Of a stretch of DNA of 27,523 nt, positions 1,131 through 25,250 are shown piece after piece. Source of the stretch: a virus. Both the position numbers and the translations under genes were made by a program. The notes beneath the pieces were generated by a model that did not search any database, had not been told where the DNA came from, and was given only the letters and a program-made list of their open reading frames with translations. Positions within the stretch are counted from its first letter, which is position 1, and every line of letters starts with the position of its first letter. The stretch covers positions 1-27,523 of IMG/VR virus record IMGVR_UViG_3300001686_000023; one strand, written 5' to 3'.

Positions 1131-1847
1131 TTATAAGATCGAAATCAAGGTCCCGAAGAAGGACTTAAGAGAAAGATAGGCGGCGAGGACTTCAGCCTCG
1201 GTAAGGCTACGGCCTTCGTAGATGGCCGCATAAGCTATAGCACCATCACCAGTCTGATCTAGACCAATTCTCAGAGACCGCTGCACGTCACGAGGAGCAG
1301 TCCCTGCAGCGAGACCTGTATTGCTTGATAAAACACCAGAAGTTCCGAGATAGATTTTAGGAGGTAGACCTAAAGGGCCGACCCCAGCAGTAAAGAAAAA
1401 GCCTCCAGTATTGGGCACATCTAACCGTGCTATATCAGCACCAGAGGAATATCTATTATTGAAGAATCGTAGCCCAGCTCCGGAACCACTAGTTAGAACC
1501 GAAAACCCAGTGACATTATTCGAAGGTGAATAAAAAGTGAAGGGAAACAGTTCACCAATGCCTGCTGGCCTGCATATTGCAAACATAGTGATATCACCAG
1601 TAGGAGTTATATGAGTATCAAAGCCATTTTGACCATAGCCGCCACCACTAATATTTGTGAATCCTGGAGCATAAGTTGGCGTCCCGACTTGAGTCATTGG
1701 TAAGGATGGATTTGCACGATTTATAACAGCATGAGCGGTATCTGTGTTTATTAGCCATTCACCTACTAAGTTATCAACACTAGGAAGAGTTAGCGAAGCA
1801 AGCTTATTTGCAAAATTAGCAGTTGCTACCCGAATTGAGATTCCCAT
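1131..1847 (-). CDS. LamG/concanavalin-like tail protein, putative glycan binder
   Basis: 238 residues from the ATG at 1847, which overlaps the TGA of the upstream esterase-like gene as TGATG and suggests translational coupling. An in-frame ATG 27 bases further upstream (1874) is less likely because it lies inside the preceding gene without an SD. The body reads as one jelly-roll domain of the LamG/concanavalin-like type: an opening NLVGEWL segment, Gly/Ser-rich strands (FTNISGGGYGQNGFDTHI), and a closing segment AIYEGRSLTEAEVLAAYLSL, which is typical of the end of such domains in phage tail proteins. LamG-like domains often bind surface sugars. It sits between an esterase-like protein and the collagen fibre, so adhesion is the likely role. 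The ligand is unknown, and assignment rests on pattern only. Confidence 0.6.
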   Translation of the reverse strand: MGISIRVATANFANKLASLTLPSVDNLVGEWLINTDTAHAVINRANPSLPMTQVGTPTYAPGFTNISGGGYGQNGFDTHITPTGDITMFAICRPAGIGELFPFTFYSPSNNVTGFSVLTSGSGAGLRFFNNRYSSGADIARLDVPNTGGFFFTAGVGPLGLPPKIYLGTSGVLSSNTGLAAGTAPRDVQRSLRIGLDQTGDGAIAYAAIYEGRSLTEAEVLAAYLSLKSFFGTLISIL

Positions 1848-3520
1848 CACAGCGCCCTTTCGAAGATGACACACCAGTTATCTAATCGCTTGTTGATTCC
1901 AGTTGGATTAAATACAACGCTATCACCTTGGCTATCGCGTAAATTTCCGCCAGTACTCGTAGGAGGAACAGTCTTCCCGCCATAACGCAGTACAGACCCA
2001 GGAGTGATTGGTGTGGATGAAATAATCCGGACAGTGCTTGGTCCTGTAAGTGTCACGCTAGAAAGCGTAAACTCTGAACCGGCAGAGTTAAAGACCTGAA
2101 ACCCGTAGTTGTCTCGAAAGCCTATTTGAGTTGTGTCAAATACCAGTGGAGGCACTGGAACATGAAATCTCACATGGATAACAGTCCCTTGCATAAACGC
2201 TTCAATACAGTCAAGTGGTAGCCAGACTTTTTTGTCTATTAAAGTTCTTTTGTGTGCCAAGCCATAGAAAGCACCAAGCCATTTATAGTTTAAGCCATCT
2301 AGATGCGTTCCATCTCCAGATGGAAAGAAATACAGCGGGCACGCTATCACAAAGCGTGGATCGATTTTTGACAACGCTAGCTGTGCTAGAGCAATTCCAG
2401 GTGGAGCAGCAAAATGGTCCGCTGATTGTCCACAAAAGAAATAGATGTCATCAGCCTGCTTCGTGAGTGCCTTAATATCCGTATTGAAATCAATAACTAA
2501 TTGACTTAATAAAGATTGATATGTTGCCTGTGAAGTACCTGCTTGATAATCAGATGTTCCTTGCGTAAACGAGAATGACCCAAGCTTAAACGTCTTTCCA
2601 ATACTATTAGATGATGTTATAGCAGAATTAACAATGCTTATCGTGCTTGAATAACCTCCAGGTCCGCCTTTTGATAAGTCTGCAAGTTTCGTTGCAGATA
2701 TGCCTGTTGCCGCTCCTAAAATAACTGACTGATAACTTGACGGAGGAGTGTTGTTTTCCGATTGTATGCGTTCGATGATACACTCTGCTGCTCCTGTAAC
2801 AGGAGTCTCACCAACATAACTGTATCCAGGCTGAATCTGCTCAACTAAGGGGACAAAGCCGCTACCTGCCGTATTATCGTCACCAGGACGAACTCCAGTA
2901 GCAAAACGAATATTATTAAAACGAGGAACGGACGAGATAATTGGAGTTCCATTAACTCCTACGGATAGACTCTGGCCGTATGAAAAATGACCAATAATGT
3001 CAGATTCAAACTCCGGAGACGTCAAAGAAGCTCCTGATCCTCCTGCAAGATAGTCACCAATATTAACGCCGTTGATTCGAGCGACGGTTAAATCTGTAGC
3101 TTCAGCTACCGTGAATTGTGCATTCTTAAAGCGAAGGGTTCCATCATCTAATACACCACCCGTTGTGATATCTGAGCTATCCAAGATAGCAATGGCCCAA
3201 CCATGTGGTATCTTAGTTCCAAGTCCACCTTCTGGAGTATTAAACTCCGGTGCTGTTATAGATTTAGTTACAAGCTCGTCAATGCTAGCTACTCTAGCAA
3301 TTAGAGTCCCATCATCCGTAACTCCGATTGCAGCAACATCGCCATTATCCAGAACTGCCCACGCATACCTATGTGGAGATTGTTTAATAACTTGAGCTAC
3401 TTCCGCAATGATTCGATCTAGAGTTGTCTTGGCATCGCTTGTACTCTGAACAATTGCAACTAATTCATTTCCTGTTAAAAGTACTGCGTCAGACTCTTGA
3501 GAGGTTTTCCTATCAGGCAT
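1847..3520 (-). CDS. SGNH/GDSL-like esterase tail protein
   Basis: 557 residues. I choose ATG 3520 (SD TAGGAG, 9-base spacing) over the GTG two codons earlier, which is only 3 bases from the SD. Residues about 47-137 hold two copies of a module with the motif 'WA(I/V)..LD..D(V/I)..GV.DDGTL'. The catalytic-looking part has GQSLS with candidate nucleophile Ser184 (SGNH block I) and DGTH with Asp403/His406 (block V spacing DxxH), separated by an alpha/beta-type region (IYFFCGQSAD). The C-terminal ~120 residues are beta-rich. Tail-borne SGNH enzymes typically remove O-acetyl groups from capsule or O-antigen, so a role in processing the host surface is plausible. Substrate is not visible. The stop overlaps the next gene's ATG. 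Confidence 0.6.
   Translation of the reverse strand: MPDRKTSQESDAVLLTGNELVAIVQSTSDAKTTLDRIIAEVAQVIKQSPHRYAWAVLDNGDVAAIGVTDDGTLIARVASIDELVTKSITAPEFNTPEGGLGTKIPHGWAIAILDSSDITTGGVLDDGTLRFKNAQFTVAEATDLTVARINGVNIGDYLAGGSGASLTSPEFESDIIGHFSYGQSLSVGVNGTPIISSVPRFNNIRFATGVRPGDDNTAGSGFVPLVEQIQPGYSYVGETPVTGAAECIIERIQSENNTPPSSYQSVILGAATGISATKLADLSKGGPGGYSSTISIVNSAITSSNSIGKTFKLGSFSFTQGTSDYQAGTSQATYQSLLSQLVIDFNTDIKALTKQADDIYFFCGQSADHFAAPPGIALAQLALSKIDPRFVIACPLYFFPSGDGTHLDGLNYKWLGAFYGLAHKRTLIDKKVWLPLDCIEAFMQGTVIHVRFHVPVPPLVFDTTQIGFRDNYGFQVFNSAGSEFTLSSVTLTGPSTVRIISSTPITPGSVLRYGGKTVPPTSTGGNLRDSQGDSVVFNPTGINKRLDNWCVIFERAL
3111..3378 (-). repeat. Tandem 'WA..LD..D...GV.DDGTL' modules in the esterase-like gene
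   Basis: Two diverged copies are coded at about 3275-3378 and 3111-3212. Copy 1 has YAWAVLDNGD and GVTDDGTL; copy 2 has GWAIAILDSSD and GVLDDGTL. The pattern suggests a small beta-hairpin attachment or spacer module used twice. Confidence 0.6.
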
Positions 3521-6807: not shown

Positions 6808-9048
6808 TTACTTGTCTGTTCCGTAACGGTTAAACTGCTGACTTCTCTCTGTTACGTAAAGATTAATTCTACTATTAACGTTGAAAATAAACTCTCCTAG
6901 GCCAACAATGATATCACTTCCAAGTTGTGGACTTAGAAACTGAGCAAAGTCAACGCCATCAACCTCAAGAATCGTTCTCATTAAATCAGAATGTGCAATT
7001 TTTCTTCCGATAGAACCTTTCTTTAAATCAAAAAGGTCTGCAAGCTTTCGTTCGACGGCTGAGAAGACTTCGTTTGGATCATACTCTGAGAAATAATAGA
7101 CCTCAACTTCAATCTCGATACGTTTCATAATTGGCGGTCTATATGTAATAAGAGTTGTAAAGTGATTGTATTTTTTAAGAAAAGTATCGACCTCGGAAAT
7201 CTGATTGTCGGAAAGGTCTGGACCGTAATAATGAATGTCAATCCAGTGTCCACCAGAAAGGAAGAATGGATATTTTAAGACAACTTGACGAGTATCATAG
7301 TTAATAGTGGATGCATCGTCTGCTGACAATAGCTGCCATTCGCAAATTTTTGTATATCCCTGAGAACCGTAACGATCTTCAATTCTCATCTTAATGTAAC
7401 GATAAGCAATATTATTCTCAAACGTCATCCAGGGGCACCACGTTGCGATTCCAGGATCAATAAGCTCCATTCGGCCACGAATTGGTTCCCAATCAACATC
7501 TGTCTCACTAGTAGGATCAACGGTGTTTGATCCCCACATACTGACAATTTTTGGAAATGCTCTCAACTCTCTAGAGGCATCATTTGATGAGCGAATACGA
7601 AAAGCTTTGGCAACTATAGAATTTCCAAGACCAAAATCATAAATGATATAGCTTGGGGAAGCTGGAGTTGGCGTTGTAGCTGATTGCCAATATGTTTCGA
7701 TATTTGCATCAACAATATTAACAACATTTGATCCGCCAGCAGTATCTGATGCTGTTACCGTTCCTCCCAAGAGCGCAGGTGCGTCAACATCTGGAGAAAC
7801 AATAACACCATGACCCTGAGAATCATTAAACACAATATCGTTGTCTGTGTTAACAGCTTGAAATGATCCTTTAATAATAGAAGTAGCAGGAATCGTAAAA
7901 CTAAAGTCGCTTTGTCCACCACCCTCTGCTGTCTGAAAAGCTTCCAATTTTGTCGGATAGAAAGTCCTCAATATTCCGGTCCAATACGCCCGGTTCATCA
8001 TTTCGAGCTTTCCAATACCTTCCTTATCAGCTTGTTCATACTCTCCCCAAGTGCGCGCATCTGCAAAAGCTAGTGGGGCTTTTGCACCGAGCAAATGTCC
8101 GATGTAATCATCCCGTCTAACTGCTCTTTGGTTAGCAGCATAGAGCCTTGGAACAACATATTTAATATCGTCTAGAGTATGCTCATCTTCTCCGCCGGAG
8201 GCAATTGTGATCGAAATTCCATCAACAGCGAGAACTTGTCCAGGTCCAATGTTGATTTGATCAATAAGAATAACCTCATCTCCGATAGAAGCGCTGTTTC
8301 CAGAAAATCCCGAGGTTTCTGTATAGTAGATTCTAATGTCTGACCCTCTAGGCGGCACTCTTCCGTAAATACCATTCCCAAAGAAAACTAGAACTTTTCC
8401 ATCAGGCGCTGTTTGTTGCAAGAAGACTGTATTTGCAGGACCGTAATAAACAAACGATCCTTCTTCAGCCTCATCCCACCAATCATTGTCAATCATTACT
8501 CGAACGGTGTTATTATCAACATTGAAAACATTTCCAATAAACCAACGTTGATATTTTTCACCCAAACCAGTGAACGTATCTACCCAAACTCTTCCTTCAT
8601 GAAGCTGAAGGTCAATGTATGGATCAGTATTGTTAAGCGTATAAGCTATTCTAGTATGCCAAAATTTATTCCGACAGCTAAATTGCGTATATGCTGGAAT
8701 TGTTATGTCTGCATCCATTTGTCCGCTGAAATCGACTGTTCCAGTTCCTGGAGGGCGCAGCCGAGCCCACATTTCCGCTGCTGACTTTCGTCTTGGTGCA
8801 ACACCAAGAGTAGCAGCGATTGCATAGCCCGCTGTTTTCAAAAAGGCAAAAGGTAGGAAATTATTTAGATTTGCTGTAACCTGTGAATAGTTAAGCATCG
8901 CTGTAATACCAGCAAGCGTATTAGATAATAAAACAATTGTTTGATCGGGAAAACCTACGGACAATAAATCTGATTCTTTTGAAAGTTTCTCTTGAAGTTC
9001 TATACTCAAAGATTGGTAGTCTGTCGAAAGTCCTGATAATTCCGGAAT
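6808..9048 (-). CDS. Baseplate wedge protein, gp6/gpJ-like, with inserted discoidin-like domain; probable ATT start
   Basis: 746 residues if started at ATT 9048, the codon 5 bases after a perfect AGGAGG. A TAA-TAG pair lies just upstream in frame and there is no ATG, GTG or TTG before it; the first canonical start (TTG 9009) has no SD. The extra 13 residues (PELSGLSTDYQSLS) look like a natural baseplate-J N-terminus. The body follows the J/gp6 pattern: helical start, central part with PRRKSAAEMW and GEDEHTLDDIKYVVPR, and a C-terminus with RPPIMKRIEIEVEV and the IGRKIAHSDLMRTILEVDGV segment that closes the wedge ring. Residues about 425-580 form an inserted F5/8C (discoidin)-like sugar-binding domain (NIVDANIETYWQS, YIIYDFGLGN, YRYIKMRI, CEWQLLSAD). 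Family call is strong; start codon is inference. Confidence 0.8.
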   Translation of the reverse strand: MPELSGLSTDYQSLSIELQEKLSKESDLLSVGFPDQTIVLLSNTLAGITAMLNYSQVTANLNNFLPFAFLKTAGYAIAATLGVAPRRKSAAEMWARLRPPGTGTVDFSGQMDADITIPAYTQFSCRNKFWHTRIAYTLNNTDPYIDLQLHEGRVWVDTFTGLGEKYQRWFIGNVFNVDNNTVRVMIDNDWWDEAEEGSFVYYGPANTVFLQQTAPDGKVLVFFGNGIYGRVPPRGSDIRIYYTETSGFSGNSASIGDEVILIDQINIGPGQVLAVDGISITIASGGEDEHTLDDIKYVVPRLYAANQRAVRRDDYIGHLLGAKAPLAFADARTWGEYEQADKEGIGKLEMMNRAYWTGILRTFYPTKLEAFQTAEGGGQSDFSFTIPATSIIKGSFQAVNTDNDIVFNDSQGHGVIVSPDVDAPALLGGTVTASDTAGGSNVVNIVDANIETYWQSATTPTPASPSYIIYDFGLGNSIVAKAFRIRSSNDASRELRAFPKIVSMWGSNTVDPTSETDVDWEPIRGRMELIDPGIATWCPWMTFENNIAYRYIKMRIEDRYGSQGYTKICEWQLLSADDASTINYDTRQVVLKYPFFLSGGHWIDIHYYGPDLSDNQISEVDTFLKKYNHFTTLITYRPPIMKRIEIEVEVYYFSEYDPNEVFSAVERKLADLFDLKKGSIGRKIAHSDLMRTILEVDGVDFAQFLSPQLGSDIIVGLGEFIFNVNSRINLYVTERSQQFNRYGTDK

Positions 9049-9063
9049 TTTAGCCTCCTATTA
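9046..9063 (-). promoter_or_regulatory. Ribosome binding site and ATT initiation codon of the gp6/gpJ-like gene
   Basis: Minus strand reads TAATAGGAGGCTAAAATT. TAA and TAG are in frame with the gene and close it upstream, AGGAGG is a perfect SD, and ATT lies 5 bases after it. The same block with one base changed precedes the spike gene (11336-11350). Confidence 0.65.
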
Positions 9064-9086: not shown

Positions 9087-9428
9087 TTAGCGGCCTATTT
9101 GAGTGGGTAATATTCTGACGTACTCTGCAATTTGTTGTGTACTTTTTATGATGTACACCAGTTTTACGTAATAACCTGGCATTCCTGAAATGCCTCCATC
9201 ATAATCAGGAATGACATAAGAATCACGCATATTTATTAGAATCCTAGGCTCAAATGCTTTAGTAGCTTCAATAAGATAGATTTTAATGCTCATTGCTGTT
9301 CTATCATTCATTGGCTCAAACAGAAAATGTTTTAGCCTTGCACCAAAACCTCGATTGAACATAAAACTTCCTAAAGGGCACAAAAGTATATTATCAATGT
9401 TTTGTTCCAAGGCAGCTACATCATCCAT
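9087..9428 (-). CDS. Baseplate wedge protein, gp25/GPW-like (5' part in a shifted frame)
   Basis: The intact frame codes 113 residues from ATG 9428 with the gp25/gpW pattern: QNIDNILLCPLGSFMFNRGFG, LFEPMNDRTA, and the conserved EPR core motif (FEPRILI). gp25-like proteins join wedge subunits and contact the innermost sheath ring. ATG 9428 has no SD. Upstream, the +1 frame continues without a stop as FQDLNRRWQQTSLELVI, matching the 'F.DL' N-terminus usual in this family, while an ATG with a purine-rich upstream (9492) opens in a different frame. If one base near 9477 is skipped, the product is 134 residues, close to T4 gp25 (132). It lies downstream of an inserted homing endonuclease gene. Confidence 0.75.
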   Translation of the reverse strand: MDDVAALEQNIDNILLCPLGSFMFNRGFGARLKHFLFEPMNDRTAMSIKIYLIEATKAFEPRILINMRDSYVIPDYDGGISGMPGYYVKLVYIIKSTQQIAEYVRILPTQIGR

Positions 9429-9525: not shown

Positions 9526-10074
9526 CTATGCTACGTGTTTCCAGTTTAAATTTCTTTTAATTAATGAGATTGTACTAGGATCAACCCCAAGCTCCCTAGC
9601 TAATCTAGCTATTGTGCCTCTAGGGGCATTTATAAGCTGTCTTCTTACGTACAAAACTTCCTCTTCTGTAAGCAAAGACATGCCATGCCTTTCTCCATTA
9701 GCAATTGTTCCATGAGTAAATTTATCATAGATATTTTCTTTATGAGTACTATACGCTAAATTGCCTAGGTCATTTTTAGTCGCGTCTCCATTCAAATGAC
9801 GGCACTCATACCCTTCAGGACAAGGGCCGATAAACGCTAACAAAACTAGCTGATGAATCCAAGGAGTTGAATAAATTCCATCTTTGGACAAGCAAACATT
9901 TTGCCTTTTATATCCATCTTTATTAGAAACAGTAACTGCGGTTAACAATTTCTCAGATACTCTTATCAAACAACCATTTGGACCTTTTCTTTTCCTTTCA
10001 AGAGATTTAACTCTCCCTAAATTCGAGACTTTGTACCTGCCTTCATATCCAGGGATATCTTTCCAAATTTCCAT
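9526..10074 (-). CDS. HNH homing endonuclease with NUMOD4 and helix-turn-helix
   Basis: 182 residues from ATG 10074, preceded by GGAG at 9-base spacing; an in-frame ATG five codons earlier (10089) is the alternative. Starting at MEIWKDIPGYEGRYKVSNLG matches the usual NUMOD4 opening. The HNH core follows: WIHQLVLLAFIG, then CRHLNGDATKNDLGNL (DNA-nicking His/Asn motif). The C-terminus RLARELGVDPSTISLIKRN reads as a DNA-binding helix-turn-helix of the NUMOD/IENR type. Free-standing enzymes of this kind cut an allele lacking the gene and copy themselves by repair. It sits between spike and gp25-like genes, 4 bases after the first and 34 bases before the probable original start of the second, and may be linked to the frame damage there. 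Confidence 0.85.
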   Translation of the reverse strand: MEIWKDIPGYEGRYKVSNLGRVKSLERKRKGPNGCLIRVSEKLLTAVTVSNKDGYKRQNVCLSKDGIYSTPWIHQLVLLAFIGPCPEGYECRHLNGDATKNDLGNLAYSTHKENIYDKFTHGTIANGERHGMSLLTEEEVLYVRRQLINAPRGTIARLARELGVDPSTISLIKRNLNWKHVA

Positions 10075-10093
10075 TTTTACATTCTCCATTTTT

Positions 10094-11338
10094 CTAGGTT
10101 CCTGTGACTTTTGTCAAGAAGTTAGAGATATCTGAATCACCTCTGCTATCTATCGTTCCTTGTGCTGAAACGGGCTTGCTCGCATCTTCCGAGCCAAGTT
10201 TTGTATTACCTGCTGTAAAGATGGTTGGCGCTGTAAGACCGATCTTACTTTGAGAGTCTGCTGTAATATCGGACTTAGCTTTAATCACTACTTTTCCTTC
10301 AACAGATTCAATTGTAATATCCGTATCAGTCAATTGGATCATTGTCTTCTTTTGCTCTTCTCCGTTTTCATCGTTTACTTGAATAGTGATCTTTTTCTTT
10401 TCTAGCTTAACAAATGCGAGCTTTTTCAAATCCTTATCATCAGCCTCATGCGGCTTTTCAGCACCTGCATCTGCACCAAGCAACATATGCAGTAAGCCCA
10501 TAGCTTGCATCTGCTGTTGTTGCTGTTGTTTTGGCTTGACGATAGCTAATGTAATTTCTTCGTCAGCAAAATAGTTTACTTTTGCTTTTCCTTGGTTTTC
10601 CCCTGCATCAAGTGGAATGTCCTGAAAACCGCCAATATCTCTAGCAGGACCTTCCATGCCAAGATGATTTCTAACAACATCATGTAAGCGACCGTCACCG
10701 CTTTTGCTAAAAGATTTAAGGACTTTTCCATCTGGTGCAAAAAGAAAATGATGACTTGATGCAATAGTTTGCTGCGTATTTCCCTGATCAAATTTGTTGG
10801 CTCCAGGTGTATTGCTCTTGCTGTTTGTAAAGTAAAAAGTCGTAACGCCTCTTGTTCTATGATTGTGAGGACCATCCATCTGTGTGTGATCTGAATGGAT
10901 GTCCTTTTTACCCATATTGTTGTAGTTATTAATGTTGGCTAATGGGTCTTTTTGTCCATATCTTTGATATTGATTCTCATCATCGAATTCAGAGATTGCT
11001 CCAGGCTTTGAATAAGGAGCACCTGAACCGAGACTCGAATAAGGATCGTCGCCATGGAAACGCATTTTTACATGCGCATCCTTTTGAGGCATCTGAAAAT
11101 GTGACATTTCTTCTTGTGTGCCGTAATTCTCATGACGCTCTAATTGCGTCAACGGCAAATGCTCATCTGGAATCCCAGAACCTGCCTCTCCGTCTAGTTC
11201 AGGAACGCGAACACGAACACGACCTAATTTCTTTGGGTCTTTTTGTTGTTTCGGATCAAGTGTTTTTCCATAGTGAACGTCCTCACTCGTTGATTCGGGA
11301 CGATCCCTCATGAGATCAAGCGGGTTTAGGAAAGTAAT
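10094..11338 (-). CDS. Baseplate central spike protein, gp5/gpV-like, without lysozyme domain; probable ATT start
   Basis: 414 residues if started at ATT 11338, 5 bases after a perfect AGGAGG; 405 if started at ATG 11311, which has no SD. The in-frame TAG of the preceding gene lies 12 bases before ATT with no canonical start between them. The extra residues are TFLNPLDL. Residues about 35-75 look like the gp5/gpV OB fold (KLGRVRVRVPELDGE, IPDEHLPLTQ) that plugs the hub. Histidine-rich DGPHNHRTRG follows, then a Gln run and a repetitive beta C-terminus (KKITIQV, DTDITIESVEGKVVIKAKSD) typical of the trimeric beta-helix needle. T4 gp5 carries a lysozyme between these parts; here it is absent, while the tape measure has lytic domains. 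Spike identity is well supported. Confidence 0.8.
   Translation of the reverse strand: MTFLNPLDLMRDRPESTSEDVHYGKTLDPKQQKDPKKLGRVRVRVPELDGEAGSGIPDEHLPLTQLERHENYGTQEEMSHFQMPQKDAHVKMRFHGDDPYSSLGSGAPYSKPGAISEFDDENQYQRYGQKDPLANINNYNNMGKKDIHSDHTQMDGPHNHRTRGVTTFYFTNSKSNTPGANKFDQGNTQQTIASSHHFLFAPDGKVLKSFSKSGDGRLHDVVRNHLGMEGPARDIGGFQDIPLDAGENQGKAKVNYFADEEITLAIVKPKQQQQQQMQAMGLLHMLLGADAGAEKPHEADDKDLKKLAFVKLEKKKITIQVNDENGEEQKKTMIQLTDTDITIESVEGKVVIKAKSDITADSQSKIGLTAPTIFTAGNTKLGSEDASKPVSAQGTIDSRGDSDISNFLTKVTGT
10511..10531 (-). repeat. Glutamine-coding CAA/CAG tract in the spike gene
   Basis: A run of seven-residue length, nearly pure Gln codons (KQQQQQQMQ), just before the helical-looking GLLHMLLGAD segment. 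It is a simple-sequence tract that could vary in length between relatives. Confidence 0.7.
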
Positions 11339-11350
11339 TTTAACCTCCTA
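11336..11350 (-). promoter_or_regulatory. Ribosome binding site and ATT initiation codon of the spike gene
   Basis: Minus strand reads TAGGAGGTTAAAATT. The TAG ends the 44-residue membrane protein gene and is in frame with the spike; AGGAGG overlaps it and ATT follows at 5-base spacing. It differs by one base from the block before the gp6/gpJ-like gene. Confidence 0.65.
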
Positions 11351-11482
11351 TTTCTGCTTCTTTTCTGCCTGTCTTGCAATCCAGTAGTCAGAAAATGTAT
11401 TCGTTGCTAGTCCCCAAAAGAAGAATACAAGCAAAATAAGAAAAGCCCAAAATGACCAAAGTTTAATATAATACTCAATCAT
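11348..11482 (-). CDS. 44-residue single-pass membrane protein between hub and spike
   Basis: ATG 11482 lies two bases after the TAA of the hub gene; TAG at 11348 overlaps the spike SD and is in the spike frame. The product starts MIEYYIKLWS, continues with a hydrophobic stretch (FWAFLILLVFFFWGLA, about residues 11-26) and ends in a polar, basic tail (WIARQAEKKQK). The positive tail suggests the C-terminus stays in the cytoplasm. I do not recognise the family. Its place between hub and spike genes suggests a small membrane or tail-tip accessory peptide; a holin-type role is possible but unsupported. It is tightly packed with both neighbours, and that plus the composition argues for a real gene. 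Confidence 0.6.
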   Translation of the reverse strand: MIEYYIKLWSFWAFLILLVFFFWGLATNTFSDYWIARQAEKKQK

Positions 11483-13815: not shown

Positions 13816-16800
13816 TTAGAGTCCTTCACCTGAGTGCAGGGTAAGCGCCACATCACCATACGTAAAGCTCTTGAATGAATTCTCTCCAGCATTGCCAGAG
13901 CCAGAAGCATCAGTTTGGTCAGAAGCTCTAGAAGATGCCATTTCTTCTGCTCTGTCAGAATCAGCTTCAACTTGTTTTTCAACTCCAGACAATGCAGCAT
14001 TTTCGGATTCCATGCCTCCTGCTGTTGTCGTTGGGGCCTCAATTCCTTTCAAGGGTTCGTCCTCAAATCCTGAGGCATCATTTTTATTTCCTCCAACATC
14101 ACTAGATTCCATGGAAATAGGTTTGGACATTAAGTTGTTATCCATACCTTGATCAGATTTAACCCCAGCGCCTTCCTCACCTCGGAGACTATCAGACGCT
14201 GGACGATCATGCTTATAGATTTCTGAATCATCTGATCTCCGTCTCATTGCCTCAGGATCGGGCAAAGGATTTTCACGCCAAGGTGTGTAATGCTTATCTT
14301 CTTCTATTTGAGAAGGTTTACGATATGGAGACTCTGTAGTAAAACCTTTAGAAGTTTCCGCTTCTCTGTCTGCTCCAACAGATTGAAATGCGTCACTTAT
14401 TCTTTGATTAAATGCTTCACCACGCATTTTCTCGCCAGTTGGAATCTTAGCCTGTCTGGCCTCAGACATCATATTAATACCAGATTGCTGAGCTTCTGTG
14501 CCCATAAACATCTGATTACGAGTTTGGCCCCTATTTGTTGGATCAAATGTATTAAAAGCTTCCTGACCCCTTGCATTCATAAACATATCTAGAGCACCAG
14601 GATTATTAGTAAGACCTTCTTCCTTCATCCTACCAGTTATAAGTCTGCTTCCAATATCTTGTCGCCTCTCCTCAGCATTGGGAGAAAAATTGCCAAGGGA
14701 TTCATATCTGCCTGTAGACTTGAAATCAGGATCAAGTTTTGACTCTTTTTCAGAATCACCAGACAAAATGGCATCTATTTCAGCATCACTTGGCCTTTTG
14801 CTTGATGAAATGTCTCCTTGCTGTGCTTGAATATCACTACCACGAGCCTCTCCACCGCCTGTAGCTTCTGATCCAAGAGCCCCTGGAGTTTCAGAGGCAG
14901 GACTATCACCTCCCATTGGAGGAACAATATCTTTTTCTCTTTGTCCTGAAAGAGCATTATCTGGAGTCTGATCTCCGCCACGATCTGCTTGCTTTGCATC
15001 AACATCACTTACAGGACCACGTTGAGGCTCTTTTGCTGAAACGTCTCCAGGAATTCTTTTTTGTGATGGACCTGCGTCTTTTCCACCTCCTCCTCCTCCA
15101 CCATCATCACCTCGATCAGCAACTCCCTTACCAGCAAACTGTGTTTCTTTCTGATTTCCTAAAGCTTTTCCAATAGCTTTTGAATATTTTGTTCCTGCCG
15201 TGCCAAAAGCATCTTTACCAGCACGACCTGTTTCCAACCATTTTGTTGCACCAACAACTTTTCCTTTGCCCCATCCTGCGCCTTGATTATGTGCATAACC
15301 AAGGGCAGCTAATTTTCCTTGAGGAGAAAGAGCGCGATATTTTGGACTATGAGACATTAAATAATCATGATGACCTTTTGTATAAGCGTCGAAGTAACGA
15401 TCTTGCATCTTTGGATTGCTTAAGAATTCTTTTGTGGAAGGAGCCCGCTCTCCTAATTGTTTTGCAGTTTGAGTAATTTCTGCACGACCCATCTGGTAAG
15501 CACCAGCAAATCGACCGCTAGAACCTCCCATAATTCCGTAACGACCACGACTTTCAATTCCCATCATGGTCTGTCTAAAAGTTTGATATTGACCGCCTGT
15601 AGCGCCAACAGCCTTAGAAGTCATACCTCCACCGCCAGTACCTTCTCTTCCAACACCAAAAGGTCTAGAAGGAGGTGTAGGCGCGAATTCTGTTCGAATT
15701 CCTTCAGGAGCACGAGGAAACTCCTCAGGTCTAGAAGGAGGGGATGGAACATTTTCTCCAGGAGGGACTATTGATTCTCTTCCCAGATAATTTTCTGAAC
15801 CTGGAGATGCAACAGTTGCATCGTCAAGTGATCTAGGACGTGGTGGAGGAAGCGGAACACGGCCTCCACCTTCATCTGTTGTATGAAGAGAAGTCCAATC
15901 AGCAGAATCAATATTAACTGACTCTGGAGTTAAATCGCCAGACTGTTTTGCAGAAACTGGCGGTGTTCCTGATCCTTCACTTTGATCACTAGCAACATTC
16001 ATCGGACCTTCAACTTTTTGTCCGGTACTATCAACAATATCGCCTGAAGGCGTTGTTCCGTAACCAGTTCCTTGGAAATCTCTGCTTCCTCCTCGATCCT
16101 GATTATAAAGCTTTTGATCTTCTGGACTCATCCTCTCAAAAGCACGATTCCTAGTCTCATCAGAAACTTCACCTTGAGGACCAACTTTCGGAGCATTTGG
16201 ACCACTACCCTCTTCATACTTAAAGCCTTCTGGAGTACGTCTTGGTAGTGGGTATCTTTCAGAATCTCCTGATTGTTGAGCATCAACAGTTTGCTTTTCT
16301 TGTTCTCCTTTTGCTGTTTGTGTTTGTCCTCCTCCATAAGGAATTTTATCTAATCTTGATTGAACTTCAGCCTTGTCCATACCAAAAGCTTTAGAACCAC
16401 CTCCTTCATCAAAGACATGAGTTTGGCCAGCTTTACCGCCCATATCAAGGTGAAGGTGATCCTTAGCAATTCCAACTCTCGTAAATCCAGCTTTCTTTGC
16501 GTTCTCTAAGAGCTGTTGTCTTTGTTCCATATTAAGGTCTTTAATACGAACATCGACAGCCTTACCTGAATAATGCTGAGAGTGTGCAGTGTGATCTCCT
16601 CCAGTCGTGCTAGTAACTGTAATACCGCCCGACTGAAGAGAGTTTAGACGTGCAGCAGCTTGCGATGTTTCATCTCTAAGACCTCTAGCTTCAGATTCAA
16701 CTTTCTTATTTTGAAATCTAGGAGTAGACCCTTCACCTGAAATTTCTCCGGATTGAACAGTTGCTTCATCTCTAGAAGTTCTAACAGCATTTGCTTCATC

Positions 16801-19800
16801 TAGACGACGACTTCTGTTAACACCTGCATTATGACCTTGGAGACCTTCAATCGAAGATGCAATCTGTTCACGATCTCCAGTCTTGACTGCGGAAGCTACA
16901 GAACCTGGAACTCTGCCGTAATTATAAGTTAAAGATGTCAGTGCTGCTTGGCTTTGAGGATTTAGCTTATTCCAAGCTTCTTCTCCAACTTGTGATTTAG
17001 CCGTATTTTGGAACTCTCCAATACGTCTCTTTAAATCTCTTTCTGCGTCTTCTCTAGTAACTCTAGTTGAAGATGTAACCTTCTCAACAGTTCCGTCTGC
17101 TTTCGTGATTGTATCAGAGCCGTACCCAGCTCTAAGAGCATTTACATCCCAATAAGGCGTGCTCCTAAAGCCTTCATGCTTACGAAGCATTCCAGCAGCA
17201 ATATCAATAGACGATCCATTTTGAGTACCTTGTGTATCGCCTCCTCTTCCTCCTTGATCTGCTTGAGTTGTTGAACCATCACGTTTATTTTGTGATCCAG
17301 GGCTAAATCTATCTGTTGGAGGGCCTAACTCCCGATTGCCAGGTCCTCTCTGAATTTGTGATCTCGAATCTTGTCCGCTTTCAAGATCATCACGGCGTCT
17401 TTGTTGAAACATCGAGCCTGTATCAGGAACTCCAGGACCAGAAGAGCCTCCCTGCCCCAGAGAAGGCCCAGCACCGCCTCCTAGGCCGCCATAGTCTCCA
17501 CCACTACCTGAACCACCAAAGCCGCCTGTAGCGCCTCCAAAGCCGCCGCCTGAGGCCCCAAAACCACCGCCGCTACCGTAAGAGGCTAGCTGAAACCCAT
17601 CGCCGCCAGCAGCGGAACCTCTCATTTTGTCTGTAAAAACTCTAAAGAAAAACTCAAGAATTTCTGTTTGACGTCGTTGATAAGAAAGCATCTGATCAAA
17701 TTTAGAAACAACTTGTTGTTGCTGCTGTACTCCACCGCCAAGCGCCGAATAAGAAGCAGACTGAATTAAATTAGAACGCTCTCTTCCACCATCTGTATCA
17801 TCGTAAGATTGGTTCTGAATCATTGGAGGTTTTGCAATAATAGTTGATTCACCTTCTGCTTGACCTTGCAGCTCAAGAAGCCTTTCTACAGCTCCTGCAA
17901 CACCTCCCTTAGTTACTTTTGATTGAAAGCGGGGTGGGGCTGGTGGACCATATTCAGGCGTTGGTTCCGGTTTAAATCTATCAGGAACAGTAACCGCTCC
18001 AGGTTCCTGTTCCGAAAACTCACCTAAATTCTTGTGACCTTCTGCTATTGCGTCTACTGCTGGCTTGAAAAACTTAACTACAGCTGCTGCATTCTCTGAT
18101 AGTGCCGATCCCATCTCTCGTATGCCACGCCAAAGCTCAGCATTGGACGCAGCCATATCTTTATCTATTTGAGAAAGAGTTGAAGAAATACCAGAAAAGA
18201 CGGTTTTAACCTCATCTCTAGCGTCAATAAAGTTTTTCTTAAAAGTCTCTAGCTCTTCAGAAATTGTTGGGAGTCTCTTACCTGTAATATCCTCAACTTT
18301 ACCAACAAAGTCATCAAGGGTTTTATGAACACCTTTAACTTTATCAGCATATTCCTGAGGATCAAAACCAAAGATATTACTTAGAGCCTTTGTAGCTCCG
18401 GCACCAAGCCTCTGAAGATTTGTTAGTTCTCTTGGATCGTCTTCTTTTCTTCCTAAAAATTTATTAACTTGCTTATCATCACCATATGTTCCGAGAAAAC
18501 CTTTTCCAACTTGATATCCAGTAAAACCAAGAGCACCAAGGCCAGCTGCACCGCCAAGAGCACCTAGCAAAAGCCGAGAAAGACCACCTGCGGCTAAACC
18601 ACCAAGAAGACTGCTGGCAAAAGAAGAACCAGCATTAGCGGCAACATGAGTACCAATATTTTTTGCGAATGTATGCTGATCTGGACTATTAGGCTCAAAA
18701 AATTTGTGTAGAGGCTTAAAACCTGATGTAACGGTTGCTCCTAAAGAATGAATAGCAGTTGGAACTGAACGAACTGCAGAGTAAACATTTCTAATATCTT
18801 CTCGGCTTTCCTGAAGGACTTTGACAATAAGGCCAGCTTCTGGGCCAGCAACGGCAGAGATTAATCCCGGAGTTGCACGACCAATATTGCCAGAGCCGCT
18901 TGTAAGCTCGCTTGTAAGACCACCACCAAGCTGATTGAAACTGCGTACATTGCGAGTGTCTTGTGTTGCCTGTATTTGACTTGCTTTTGTAATTAAATTT
19001 AAATTGTGTCTTAATTCTTCATTAAGCTCTCGTGTTGCAGGATTAACATTTGGCTTTCTTCCTTCATCAAGAGCTTTCTTAACTTCATCTGCAAGCTTTT
19101 GGATATGTCTATCAACAGATTCATTTGTTCTAGTAAGGATTGTTTGTGTATATTTCGGAAGGTCTCTAAAATCAGCTCCAGTTTGATTAATTACTGAAAC
19201 AAGCTTCTCCTGAACGGAAGAAAGCTCTCGAAATGCTCGCTGAGATTTCGCATCGTTTCTTAGCGAAAGTTCTTCCAGACTTCTTCCGATAACCTTTTGC
19301 GTACTTTCAGCTATTTTTTCTCTTGTTTCTTTTGTAATATCTCTAATTATATTGGAAAGCTGATCTGGAGTAACTTGAGATTTTAAAGGATCAGTTTGAG
19401 TAGCAGTTCTAACCGACTCCCGTCCGGGCTCCAGAGCAGGCGCTGCTCTCTGCTTTCCTTCCTGATTCCTTGAGAATTCCTCGAAGCGTTCTTTGAATTC
19501 TTTTGGAAGCTTCTCAATAGCTGCTTTTTGATCGTTTGAATTAGCATTTAGGGTTTCAAAAAGCTTATTAAGTTTATTATTTAAGTCGTCTCTTTGTTTA
19601 CGAAGTTCCCTGTCATTTTCATTATAACTGTCACCTCTTAAAACAGGTCTCTGTTGATTAAACTCTTGTCTAATCTGATGAATAAACTCTCTGAAGCTTT
19701 GGTCAAAGTTTGGATAAACTTGTCCTAAGGCTCCTGAAGGAGCAGATGTAGGCGCAGTAGGCTGTGAAACATTTGGTCTAATAGTTCCTGGAAGTTTGGA

Positions 19801-20097
19801 GAGAATTTGAGTAAGTTGGTTTTGATCAATCGATCCAGATTTTAAAGTTTTTATAGTATCTCTTAAATCATTAATACTTTTGCTTACTTCTTGGAACCTA
19901 CTGTAAGACGCTTCGGTCCTACTATCGACCATTGTTTTTGTTAAATCAGAAAGCTCTTTCTTTAATCCTGTAAGGGTTTGATTTAAAGAACGAAGAGCTT
20001 CTGACATTCCAGGATCAACTGGAGATGTAGCGGTCTGCTGATTGATATCAGCAGGTGGGTCAATCCCACCTGCCAAAAAGTCCCGAACTATTGCCAT
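13816..20097 (-). CDS. Tape-measure protein with three peptidoglycan-degrading domains
   Basis: 2093 residues from ATG 20097. Residues 1-370 are coiled-coil, Lys/Glu/Gln-rich. About 486-538 is a hydrophobic Gly/Leu segment (SSLLGGLAAGGLSRLLLGAL, LGALGFTGYQVGKGF) that may enter the membrane at DNA delivery. About 835-890 is a Gly/Ser-rich linker. Three lytic domains follow: GH24 lysozyme about 962-1105 (LRKHEGF with catalytic candidate Glu975, then LRAGYGSDTIT and LTSLTYNYG); an M15-type carboxypeptidase about 1137-1230 (HYSGKAVD, His1175/Asp1182, and HLH at 1214-1216); and a GH23/SLT-like transglycosylase about 1500-1650 (GIESRG with Glu1515, GAYQMG, LGYAHNQGAG). Between and after them are long polar Pro/Gly/Ser/Asp-rich linkers. 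It sets tail length and probably opens the cell wall. High confidence. Confidence 0.9.
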   Translation of the reverse strand: MAIVRDFLAGGIDPPADINQQTATSPVDPGMSEALRSLNQTLTGLKKELSDLTKTMVDSRTEASYSRFQEVSKSINDLRDTIKTLKSGSIDQNQLTQILSKLPGTIRPNVSQPTAPTSAPSGALGQVYPNFDQSFREFIHQIRQEFNQQRPVLRGDSYNENDRELRKQRDDLNNKLNKLFETLNANSNDQKAAIEKLPKEFKERFEEFSRNQEGKQRAAPALEPGRESVRTATQTDPLKSQVTPDQLSNIIRDITKETREKIAESTQKVIGRSLEELSLRNDAKSQRAFRELSSVQEKLVSVINQTGADFRDLPKYTQTILTRTNESVDRHIQKLADEVKKALDEGRKPNVNPATRELNEELRHNLNLITKASQIQATQDTRNVRSFNQLGGGLTSELTSGSGNIGRATPGLISAVAGPEAGLIVKVLQESREDIRNVYSAVRSVPTAIHSLGATVTSGFKPLHKFFEPNSPDQHTFAKNIGTHVAANAGSSFASSLLGGLAAGGLSRLLLGALGGAAGLGALGFTGYQVGKGFLGTYGDDKQVNKFLGRKEDDPRELTNLQRLGAGATKALSNIFGFDPQEYADKVKGVHKTLDDFVGKVEDITGKRLPTISEELETFKKNFIDARDEVKTVFSGISSTLSQIDKDMAASNAELWRGIREMGSALSENAAAVVKFFKPAVDAIAEGHKNLGEFSEQEPGAVTVPDRFKPEPTPEYGPPAPPRFQSKVTKGGVAGAVERLLELQGQAEGESTIIAKPPMIQNQSYDDTDGGRERSNLIQSASYSALGGGVQQQQQVVSKFDQMLSYQRRQTEILEFFFRVFTDKMRGSAAGGDGFQLASYGSGGGFGASGGGFGGATGGFGGSGSGGDYGGLGGGAGPSLGQGGSSGPGVPDTGSMFQQRRRDDLESGQDSRSQIQRGPGNRELGPPTDRFSPGSQNKRDGSTTQADQGGRGGDTQGTQNGSSIDIAAGMLRKHEGFRSTPYWDVNALRAGYGSDTITKADGTVEKVTSSTRVTREDAERDLKRRIGEFQNTAKSQVGEEAWNKLNPQSQAALTSLTYNYGRVPGSVASAVKTGDREQIASSIEGLQGHNAGVNRSRRLDEANAVRTSRDEATVQSGEISGEGSTPRFQNKKVESEARGLRDETSQAAARLNSLQSGGITVTSTTGGDHTAHSQHYSGKAVDVRIKDLNMEQRQQLLENAKKAGFTRVGIAKDHLHLDMGGKAGQTHVFDEGGGSKAFGMDKAEVQSRLDKIPYGGGQTQTAKGEQEKQTVDAQQSGDSERYPLPRRTPEGFKYEEGSGPNAPKVGPQGEVSDETRNRAFERMSPEDQKLYNQDRGGSRDFQGTGYGTTPSGDIVDSTGQKVEGPMNVASDQSEGSGTPPVSAKQSGDLTPESVNIDSADWTSLHTTDEGGGRVPLPPPRPRSLDDATVASPGSENYLGRESIVPPGENVPSPPSRPEEFPRAPEGIRTEFAPTPPSRPFGVGREGTGGGGMTSKAVGATGGQYQTFRQTMMGIESRGRYGIMGGSSGRFAGAYQMGRAEITQTAKQLGERAPSTKEFLSNPKMQDRYFDAYTKGHHDYLMSHSPKYRALSPQGKLAALGYAHNQGAGWGKGKVVGATKWLETGRAGKDAFGTAGTKYSKAIGKALGNQKETQFAGKGVADRGDDGGGGGGGKDAGPSQKRIPGDVSAKEPQRGPVSDVDAKQADRGGDQTPDNALSGQREKDIVPPMGGDSPASETPGALGSEATGGGEARGSDIQAQQGDISSSKRPSDAEIDAILSGDSEKESKLDPDFKSTGRYESLGNFSPNAEERRQDIGSRLITGRMKEEGLTNNPGALDMFMNARGQEAFNTFDPTNRGQTRNQMFMGTEAQQSGINMMSEARQAKIPTGEKMRGEAFNQRISDAFQSVGADREAETSKGFTTESPYRKPSQIEEDKHYTPWRENPLPDPEAMRRRSDDSEIYKHDRPASDSLRGEEGAGVKSDQGMDNNLMSKPISMESSDVGGNKNDASGFEDEPLKGIEAPTTTAGGMESENAALSGVEKQVEADSDRAEEMASSRASDQTDASGSGNAGENSFKSFTYGDVALTLHSGEGL

Positions 20098-24631: not shown

Positions 24632-24651
24632 TTTAGGGACTTTGCCCTAAA
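24632..24651 (-). promoter_or_regulatory. 7-bp hairpin over the endonuclease stop, just before the sheath SD
   Basis: Arms TTTAGGG (24632-24638) and CCCTAAA (24645-24651) pair perfectly around a 6-base loop and include the TAA of the GIY-YIG gene. It ends 8 bases before the sheath SD (24624). No U-tract follows, so it is not a classic terminator; it may insulate or process the sheath message. Confidence 0.45.
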
Positions 24652-25229
24652 TTGGACGTAACAACAATTTTACTGTCAGCATCTAAGCTGATGTTCTTGT
24701 TACGACACTTATCAAAGTGCCAACGTCCCATAATGGCAGCCGTACCTGATTTGCCACAATGAGGACATTCAACAATCTTTTTCATTCCACCACGACCAAG
24801 TTCTGCTGCACGTTTTGCATTTCGAGACTGAATTTCAGAATTATGAAAAGGATTTTTGCCAGCTTTCCACTGAGCTTCAAATCCCTTTCTTCCACCTTTT
24901 CGACCAAGTTCTTGATACTGTTCTTTTGTCAGATAGGAAGTTCTAGCAAGATCAGTTCTAACAGCAAAACCTTTCTTACCTTTCCAACCCCAAGCACCGT
25001 CTAAATTTTCACAAGAAATTTTGTAGTGAGTCTGTTTCCTATAGCCTAGAGATATTGACCAACCTGATTCGACGTCTCCAGCTACAGAATCTCCAACTTC
25101 ATCTTCTAGTATTTCTAGAATCTCAATTTCTATATCGTCGCCATACATCGCTTTATTTTGCAGACAGCGAGCTTCAAAGTTCTTTGTGCAGCCGACTTTG
25201 ATTCCTTTGACGTGATAGATCGTATACAT
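24633..25229 (-). CDS. GIY-YIG-type homing endonuclease with C-terminal zinc finger
   Basis: 198 residues from ATG 25229 (AAAGG 10 bases upstream); ATG 25247, six codons earlier, is the alternative. The N-terminus MYTIYHVKGIKVGCTKNFEARC matches the phage GIY-YIG nuclease pattern (in pieces: TIYHVKGIKVGCTKNF) although the classical motif is altered to TIY and KVG. The middle is Lys/Gly-rich (GRKGGRKGFEAQWKAGKNPF), as in DNA-binding parts of such enzymes, and the C-terminus has a zinc finger, Cys-x2-Cys-x12-His-x3-Cys (starting CPHCGKSGTA). Function would be site-specific DNA cleavage and self-copying into sheath alleles lacking the element. It lies between a leader with two tiny ORFs and the sheath start. 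Altered motif residues could reduce activity. Confidence 0.7.
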   Translation of the reverse strand: MYTIYHVKGIKVGCTKNFEARCLQNKAMYGDDIEIEILEILEDEVGDSVAGDVESGWSISLGYRKQTHYKISCENLDGAWGWKGKKGFAVRTDLARTSYLTKEQYQELGRKGGRKGFEAQWKAGKNPFHNSEIQSRNAKRAAELGRGGMKKIVECPHCGKSGTAAIMGRWHFDKCRNKNISLDADSKIVVTSNLGQSP

Positions 25230-25250
25230 GGTATTGTTACCTTTCATTCA

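Follow-up and report, generated by a model that had tools for sequence, protein, structure and literature searches.

Introduction

The codon AUU can be read by the initiator tRNA, and IF3 discriminates against it. An internal AUU start, giving gp26*, was reportedly described by Nivinskas and colleagues around 1992 in T4 gene 26, a baseplate gene. In Escherichia coli, infC is a full-length gene with an ATT start and is repressed by IF3 (PMC5472188), and pcnB is cited as a gene of the same species with an AUU start (PMC13009471). In Staphylococcus aureus, non-canonical starts, including the AUU of cvfC1, are accompanied by extended Shine-Dalgarno (SD) sequences and, in poor medium, reach approximately 10% of the level given by AUG; the starts of cvfC1 (AUU) and of ccpN and citZ (both AUA) are attenuated, and one of them responds to the growth medium (PMC13009471).

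Here we describe a 27,523-base record of an uncultivated T4-like phage, analysed at its full length and called the window below, in which a sequence-only reading had proposed that a baseplate wedge gene begins at ATT behind the same initiation block as the spike gene. Our own literature search, which had limited coverage, returned no description of a full-length phage virion gene that starts at AUU, an absence that is weak evidence.

Results

The minus strand (-) of the window encodes a T4-like tail module, in which the sheath and spike genes accompany a gp6-like baseplate wedge gene (6808-9048 (-)), and a gp25-like wedge gene (9087-9428 (-); PHROG_261/43) lies directly upstream of gp6. The gp6-like protein matched the baseplate wedge subunit family PHROG_219 with 143.3 bits and PHROG_6 with 59 bits, the profile matches falling in its N-terminal half and its C-terminal domain, and the PDB gp6 relatives 5hx2 and 9f4a were recovered with a gp6 profile using hmmsearch. 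Related gp6 proteins occur in isolated phages of Rhizobium, Synechococcus, Aeromonas and other hosts, the best of these proteins being 24-30% identical; no close relatives were found for gp6 and the tail sheath in viral_contigs, or for gp6 in genome_contigs. Other genes of the window include a homing-endonuclease-like gene with NUMOD4 and HNH_3 between the spike and gp25-like genes (9526-10089 (-)), and one for a tape-measure-like protein of 2093 aa (13816-20097 (-)). This protein has a Phage_lysozyme domain in its interior, and stretches resembling an M15 peptidase (SQHYSGKAVDV) and a transglycosylase were recognised in it by eye. A free-standing 204-aa ORF adjoining the sheath gene (24633-25247 (-)) has a GIY-YIG-like stretch by eye, TIYHVKGIKVGCTKNFEAR, and gave no match in a Pfam search.

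The minus strand from 9064 to 9040 reads GTAA-TAG-GAG-GCT-AAA-ATT-CCG-GAA, with TAA-TAG-GAG-GCT-AAA-ATT at 9063-9046. The gp6 frame passes through TAA (9063-9061), TAG (9060-9058), GAG (9057-9055), GCT (9054-9052), AAA (9051-9049) and ATT (9048-9046) and continues as CCG GAA TTA in frame with the TTG at 9009 (9007-9009 (-)), the next canonical start, 13 codons or 39 bases downstream. The gene has 746 codons when counted from ATT and 733 from this TTG. Five bases before the ATT stands the SD sequence TAGGAGG (9054-9060 (-)), which includes the in-frame TAG, and there is no canonical in-frame start upstream. The coordinates, the 39-base gap and the N-terminal peptide PELSGLSTDYQ were all as the sequence-only reading had given them. 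It had also held that a double in-frame stop bars read-through into gp6, and the tandem TAA-TAG (9058-9063 (-)) was confirmed in the frame; 38 bases separate the end of the gp25-like gene from the ATT, and together with the tandem this gap excludes read-through at gp6.

Read from the ATT, the gp6 N-terminus (I1-P2...D10) aligned without gaps from residue 1 with the MP......LD(F/Y) of the S-B43 and S-PM2 gp6 proteins, D10 being invariant in six phages. Conservation upstream of residue 14, one of the checks proposed for the ATT start, was thus found, in the part of the protein that holds the stretch PELSGLSTDYQSLSIELQEK. The five gp6 homologues inspected all begin with ATG at the residue corresponding to the ATT, in keeping with the earlier suggestion that ATT replaced ATG by a single base change. 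With the ATT start, the PHROG_219 match ran from residue 8 at profile position 8 (143.3 bits), compared with residue 5 at profile position 18 for the TTG start (139.6 bits); the gain is only 3.7 bits, among homologues that are 25-30% identical. These results suggest that gp6 very probably starts at ATT 9048-9046, and both this position and its SD context are well supported by the comparison.

The second ATT belongs to a short gp5-like spike gene (10094-11338 (-)) of 414 codons from the ATT or 405 from the ATG at 11311, assigned to the baseplate hub/tail lysozyme family PHROG_430 (E = 4e-6). A domain search of the spike found no lysozyme domain. Its block reads AAA-TAG-GAG-GTT-AAA-ATT, with the ATT at 11336-11338 (-) and the SD sequence AGGAGGT at 11343-11349 (-), and a 44-aa hydrophobic ORF (11348-11482 (-)) ends in a TAG that overlaps this SD in frame with the ATT. 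For the nine-residue ATT extension, we found no homologue or conserved N-terminus for comparison; the identical block and the poor SD at ATG 11311 point to ATT as the probable start of the spike.

The idea that one initiation block precedes both genes held exactly, a 14-base block, AGGAGGNTAAAATT, being present at both starts. These were its 2 copies in the window, compared with approximately 0.002 expected under a first-order Markov model and none in 100 shuffles. With two mismatches allowed, the pattern was not unusual (5 matches in the window vs 3.65 expected), so the significance depends on the exact block. A related block, GAGATAAAATG, was present at the collagen-fibre gene (1097) as had been noted, while no start in the window beyond gp6 and the spike has the block-ATT form. 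Of the starts tested in the window, the two ATT sites had the strongest duplex energies of the SD with the 3′ end of 16S (spike first, -11.4 kcal/mol; gp6 second, -10.2 kcal/mol), with other gene starts between -9.0 and -0.2 kcal/mol. The ATG at 11311 had -4.1 kcal/mol, and the TTG at 9009, which had been described as lacking an SD, gave -0.3 kcal/mol, that is almost none. RNA folding of the two start regions was not unusual (z = 1.1 and -0.9), and control of these starts by an RNA hairpin is therefore unsupported.

The sequence-only reading had suggested looking for the block elsewhere, and we ran this search beyond the window, where the ATT block opens virion genes of unrelated phages. An IMG/VR scan for AGGAGGNTAAAATTCC gave 35 stretches. 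Most matches to TAGGAGGnTAAAATT had ATG for their next codon and were discarded as ordinary sites. A context was counted as start-like when its frame stayed open for 80 codons or more and lacked an upstream canonical start. After AGGAGGNTAAA, such contexts were found for ATT at 9 of 26 distinct sites and for the non-start codons AAT, ACT and AGT at 2 of 73 (Fisher p = 7e-5); the ATA (1/28) and ATC (2/19) controls were together not significant. One ATC site (L327, AGGAGGCTAAA-ATC), with a 425-codon frame and the next canonical start 56 codons downstream, looks real and is a candidate ATC start. Another contig (L097) has the ATT block at an 82-aa zinc-ribbon-like ORF (1757-2002 (-)) whose next ATG comes only at codon 68; this ORF had no homologue in the phage collection. 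In the 257 billion bases of bacterial and archaeal sequence in genome_contigs, TAGGAGGNTAAAATTCC occurred 27 times and was followed by an open frame of 80 or more codons in 2 of these. Of the distinct sites of this block in viral contigs, nearly all stand before a long gene. The block used for searching was derived from the finding itself, and the uniformity of the nTAAA element is therefore partly imposed; two loci found by protein homology (L174 and L175) have GGAGGCTACA-ATT and GGAGGCTACT-ATT in its place.

When AGGAGG-n4-7 sites were surveyed across 3 Mb of fetched contigs, ATT was not in general excess and appeared only in the capsid homologues; for other non-canonical starts, spurious long frames in contigs rich in GC made this survey noisy. 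The 256-kb record of L387 has AGGAGG-n5-ATT once, at the start of gp15, and other ATT phages have GGAGG-n5-ATT about once each. As the survey lacked a general excess, the AGGAGG-ATT start device is rare, usually occurring once per phage, which makes two block-ATT starts in a single 27-kb window unusual.

Outside the window, block-ATT stands at the head of phage genes for major capsid, gp15-type, tail-fibre and other proteins, the homologues of which have ATG, GTG or TTG at that place. ATT stood at the annotated first residue, ATG or GTG elsewhere, in the gp15 stabilizer, PHROG 6566, PHROG 644 and major capsid families. The gp15-type tail sheath stabilizer L131 matched PHROG_227 from residue 2 and has ATT where P-SSM2 has ATG; L011 matched PHROG_6566 from residue 1, where relatives have ATG or GTG, and L026 matched a tail-fibre family from residue 1, the PHROG profile matches of all three beginning at position 1-2. 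Two members of PHROG_644 (L072 and L039) have ATT where isolates annotate ATG. L034 and L023 matched the major head protein family PHROG_9953, with L008 and L027 as homologues by sequence; an example of a predicted capsid N-terminus is PTFGQGIVPAQGAIAAELAAVTR. Among relatives of L131 (L408-L417), tandem ATG-ATA or ATG-ATG starts were seen, the start sliding by one codon within the family.

Two families act as natural experiments, in which codon strength can be weighed directly against the strength of the SD. At the same start position in 36 loci of the L034 capsid family, the codon was ATG in 21, GTG in 8, TTG in 4 and ATT in 3, one of the three ATT rows (L163) being the L034 contig itself. 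Among distinct leaders, AGGAGG was present in 7 of 10 non-ATG members vs 0 of 17 ATG members (p = 1.4e-4), although the SD duplex energies of the two groups overlapped and did not differ significantly (p = 0.27). In the capsid tree the ATT label has to change four times, supported branches forcing at least 3 of these changes, and the ATT member L163 falls beside the ATG member L188; the bootstrap of this tree is not fully settled and it has one very long branch. In the gp15 family, three contigs (L387-L389) have TAGGAGGTTAAA-ATT, and L390, with a 92% identical protein, has ATG without AGGAGG.

Discussion

These comparisons make it very likely that the gp6-like gene, and probably the gp5-like spike gene, would be initiated at AUU with fMet through a strong SD. 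The near-perfect AGGAGG(U), five bases upstream, would hold the 30S subunit while the initiator fMet-tRNA pairs imperfectly with AUU (a mismatch at the third position), and the weakness of the codon would be offset by the strength of the SD. The protein would still begin with fMet, which in gp6 would be removed before Pro2. The same AUU device appears to recur at virion genes of unrelated phages and to interchange with ATG, GTG and TTG in evolution. From the position and context of these starts we infer initiation at the ATT itself, fMet at residue 1, and an expression that may be lowered or sensitive to IF3.

An ATT that is simply a sequencing or assembly error for ATG is the least probable of the other explanations. 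A single base separates ATT from ATG, homologues most often have ATG at this place, and the window is a single metagenome record. However, the sequence-only reading took two matching blocks as evidence against such an error. The contig has two ATT sites, and block-ATT recurs in numerous contigs of different samples, among them three with identical gp15 starts and capsid genes of several lineages. It is also very improbable, if slightly less so, that gp6 starts at TTG 9009 and its 13 upstream codons are untranslated. That TTG is a canonical start with an open frame and would be the choice of standard gene finders, but it has the near absence of an SD reported above, it would cut the conserved N-terminal segment with the invariant D10, and with this start the SD ranked second in the window would serve no gene.

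Somewhat less remote, and still unlikely, is that the genes are reached from the upstream gene by re-initiation, frameshift or read-through, with the ATT as a landing or passing point only. The spike SD is overlapped by the in-frame TAG of the 44-aa ORF, the TAG also closes an open upstream frame in L026 and L044, and unrecycled ribosomes are able to start at non-canonical codons past a stop (PMC2268962). Against this, the 38-base gap and the TAA-TAG tandem exclude read-through at gp6, and re-initiation would itself use the ATT as start codon, so that it competes on the route and not on the start. A further proposal adds to initiation at AUU instead of replacing it, namely that the ATT is a regulator making late structural genes IF3-sensitive so that their synthesis is timed or scaled. 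We regard this as doubtful, though with better prospects than any of the preceding readings. It has a precedent in infC (PMC5472188) and in the S. aureus AUU and AUA starts, whose extended SDs go with attenuation and in one case with a response to the medium (PMC13009471). However, the ATT genes include major capsid genes, for which a high output is needed, ATT and ATG interchange among close relatives in a way that suggests near-neutral drift under a strong SD, and no IF3 gene was found in 13 ATT phage records, many of them partial. Because of the capsid genes and this interchange, regulation is no more likely than drift that a strong SD renders harmless.

Initiation at AUU behind a strong SD would have practical consequences. 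Gene finders limited to ATG, GTG and TTG mis-start or lose such genes, and a capsid protein begun at the next canonical start of its family would lack conserved residues. Should AUU starts be IF3-sensitive, a control known mainly from infC would extend to phage late genes. More tentatively, AUU behind TAGGAGG-nUAAA may be a start signal for virion genes of unrelated phages, major capsid genes among them, that cells hardly use, through which IF3 sets the output or timing of late proteins and which gene finders systematically miss.

Compared with the known systems, the starts proposed here resemble infC and pcnB in having AUU at the head of a full-length gene. Those are single cellular genes with regulatory roles, whereas the present ones are phage virion genes of unrelated families with a similar TAGGAGGnTAAA block. 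With S. aureus cvfC1, ccpN and citZ, they share a non-canonical start combined with a strong, extended SD; in that Gram-positive host, in contrast, the SD pairing extends toward the start codon. The T4-like gp6 wedge proteins (PHROG_219; 5hx2 and 9f4a) are homologous and share the N-terminal position, and the five inspected start at ATG. T4 gp26* is similar in that AUU initiation reportedly occurs within a T4 baseplate gene, but there the start is internal and gives a shorter product, whereas here AUU is the proposed start of the full-length protein.
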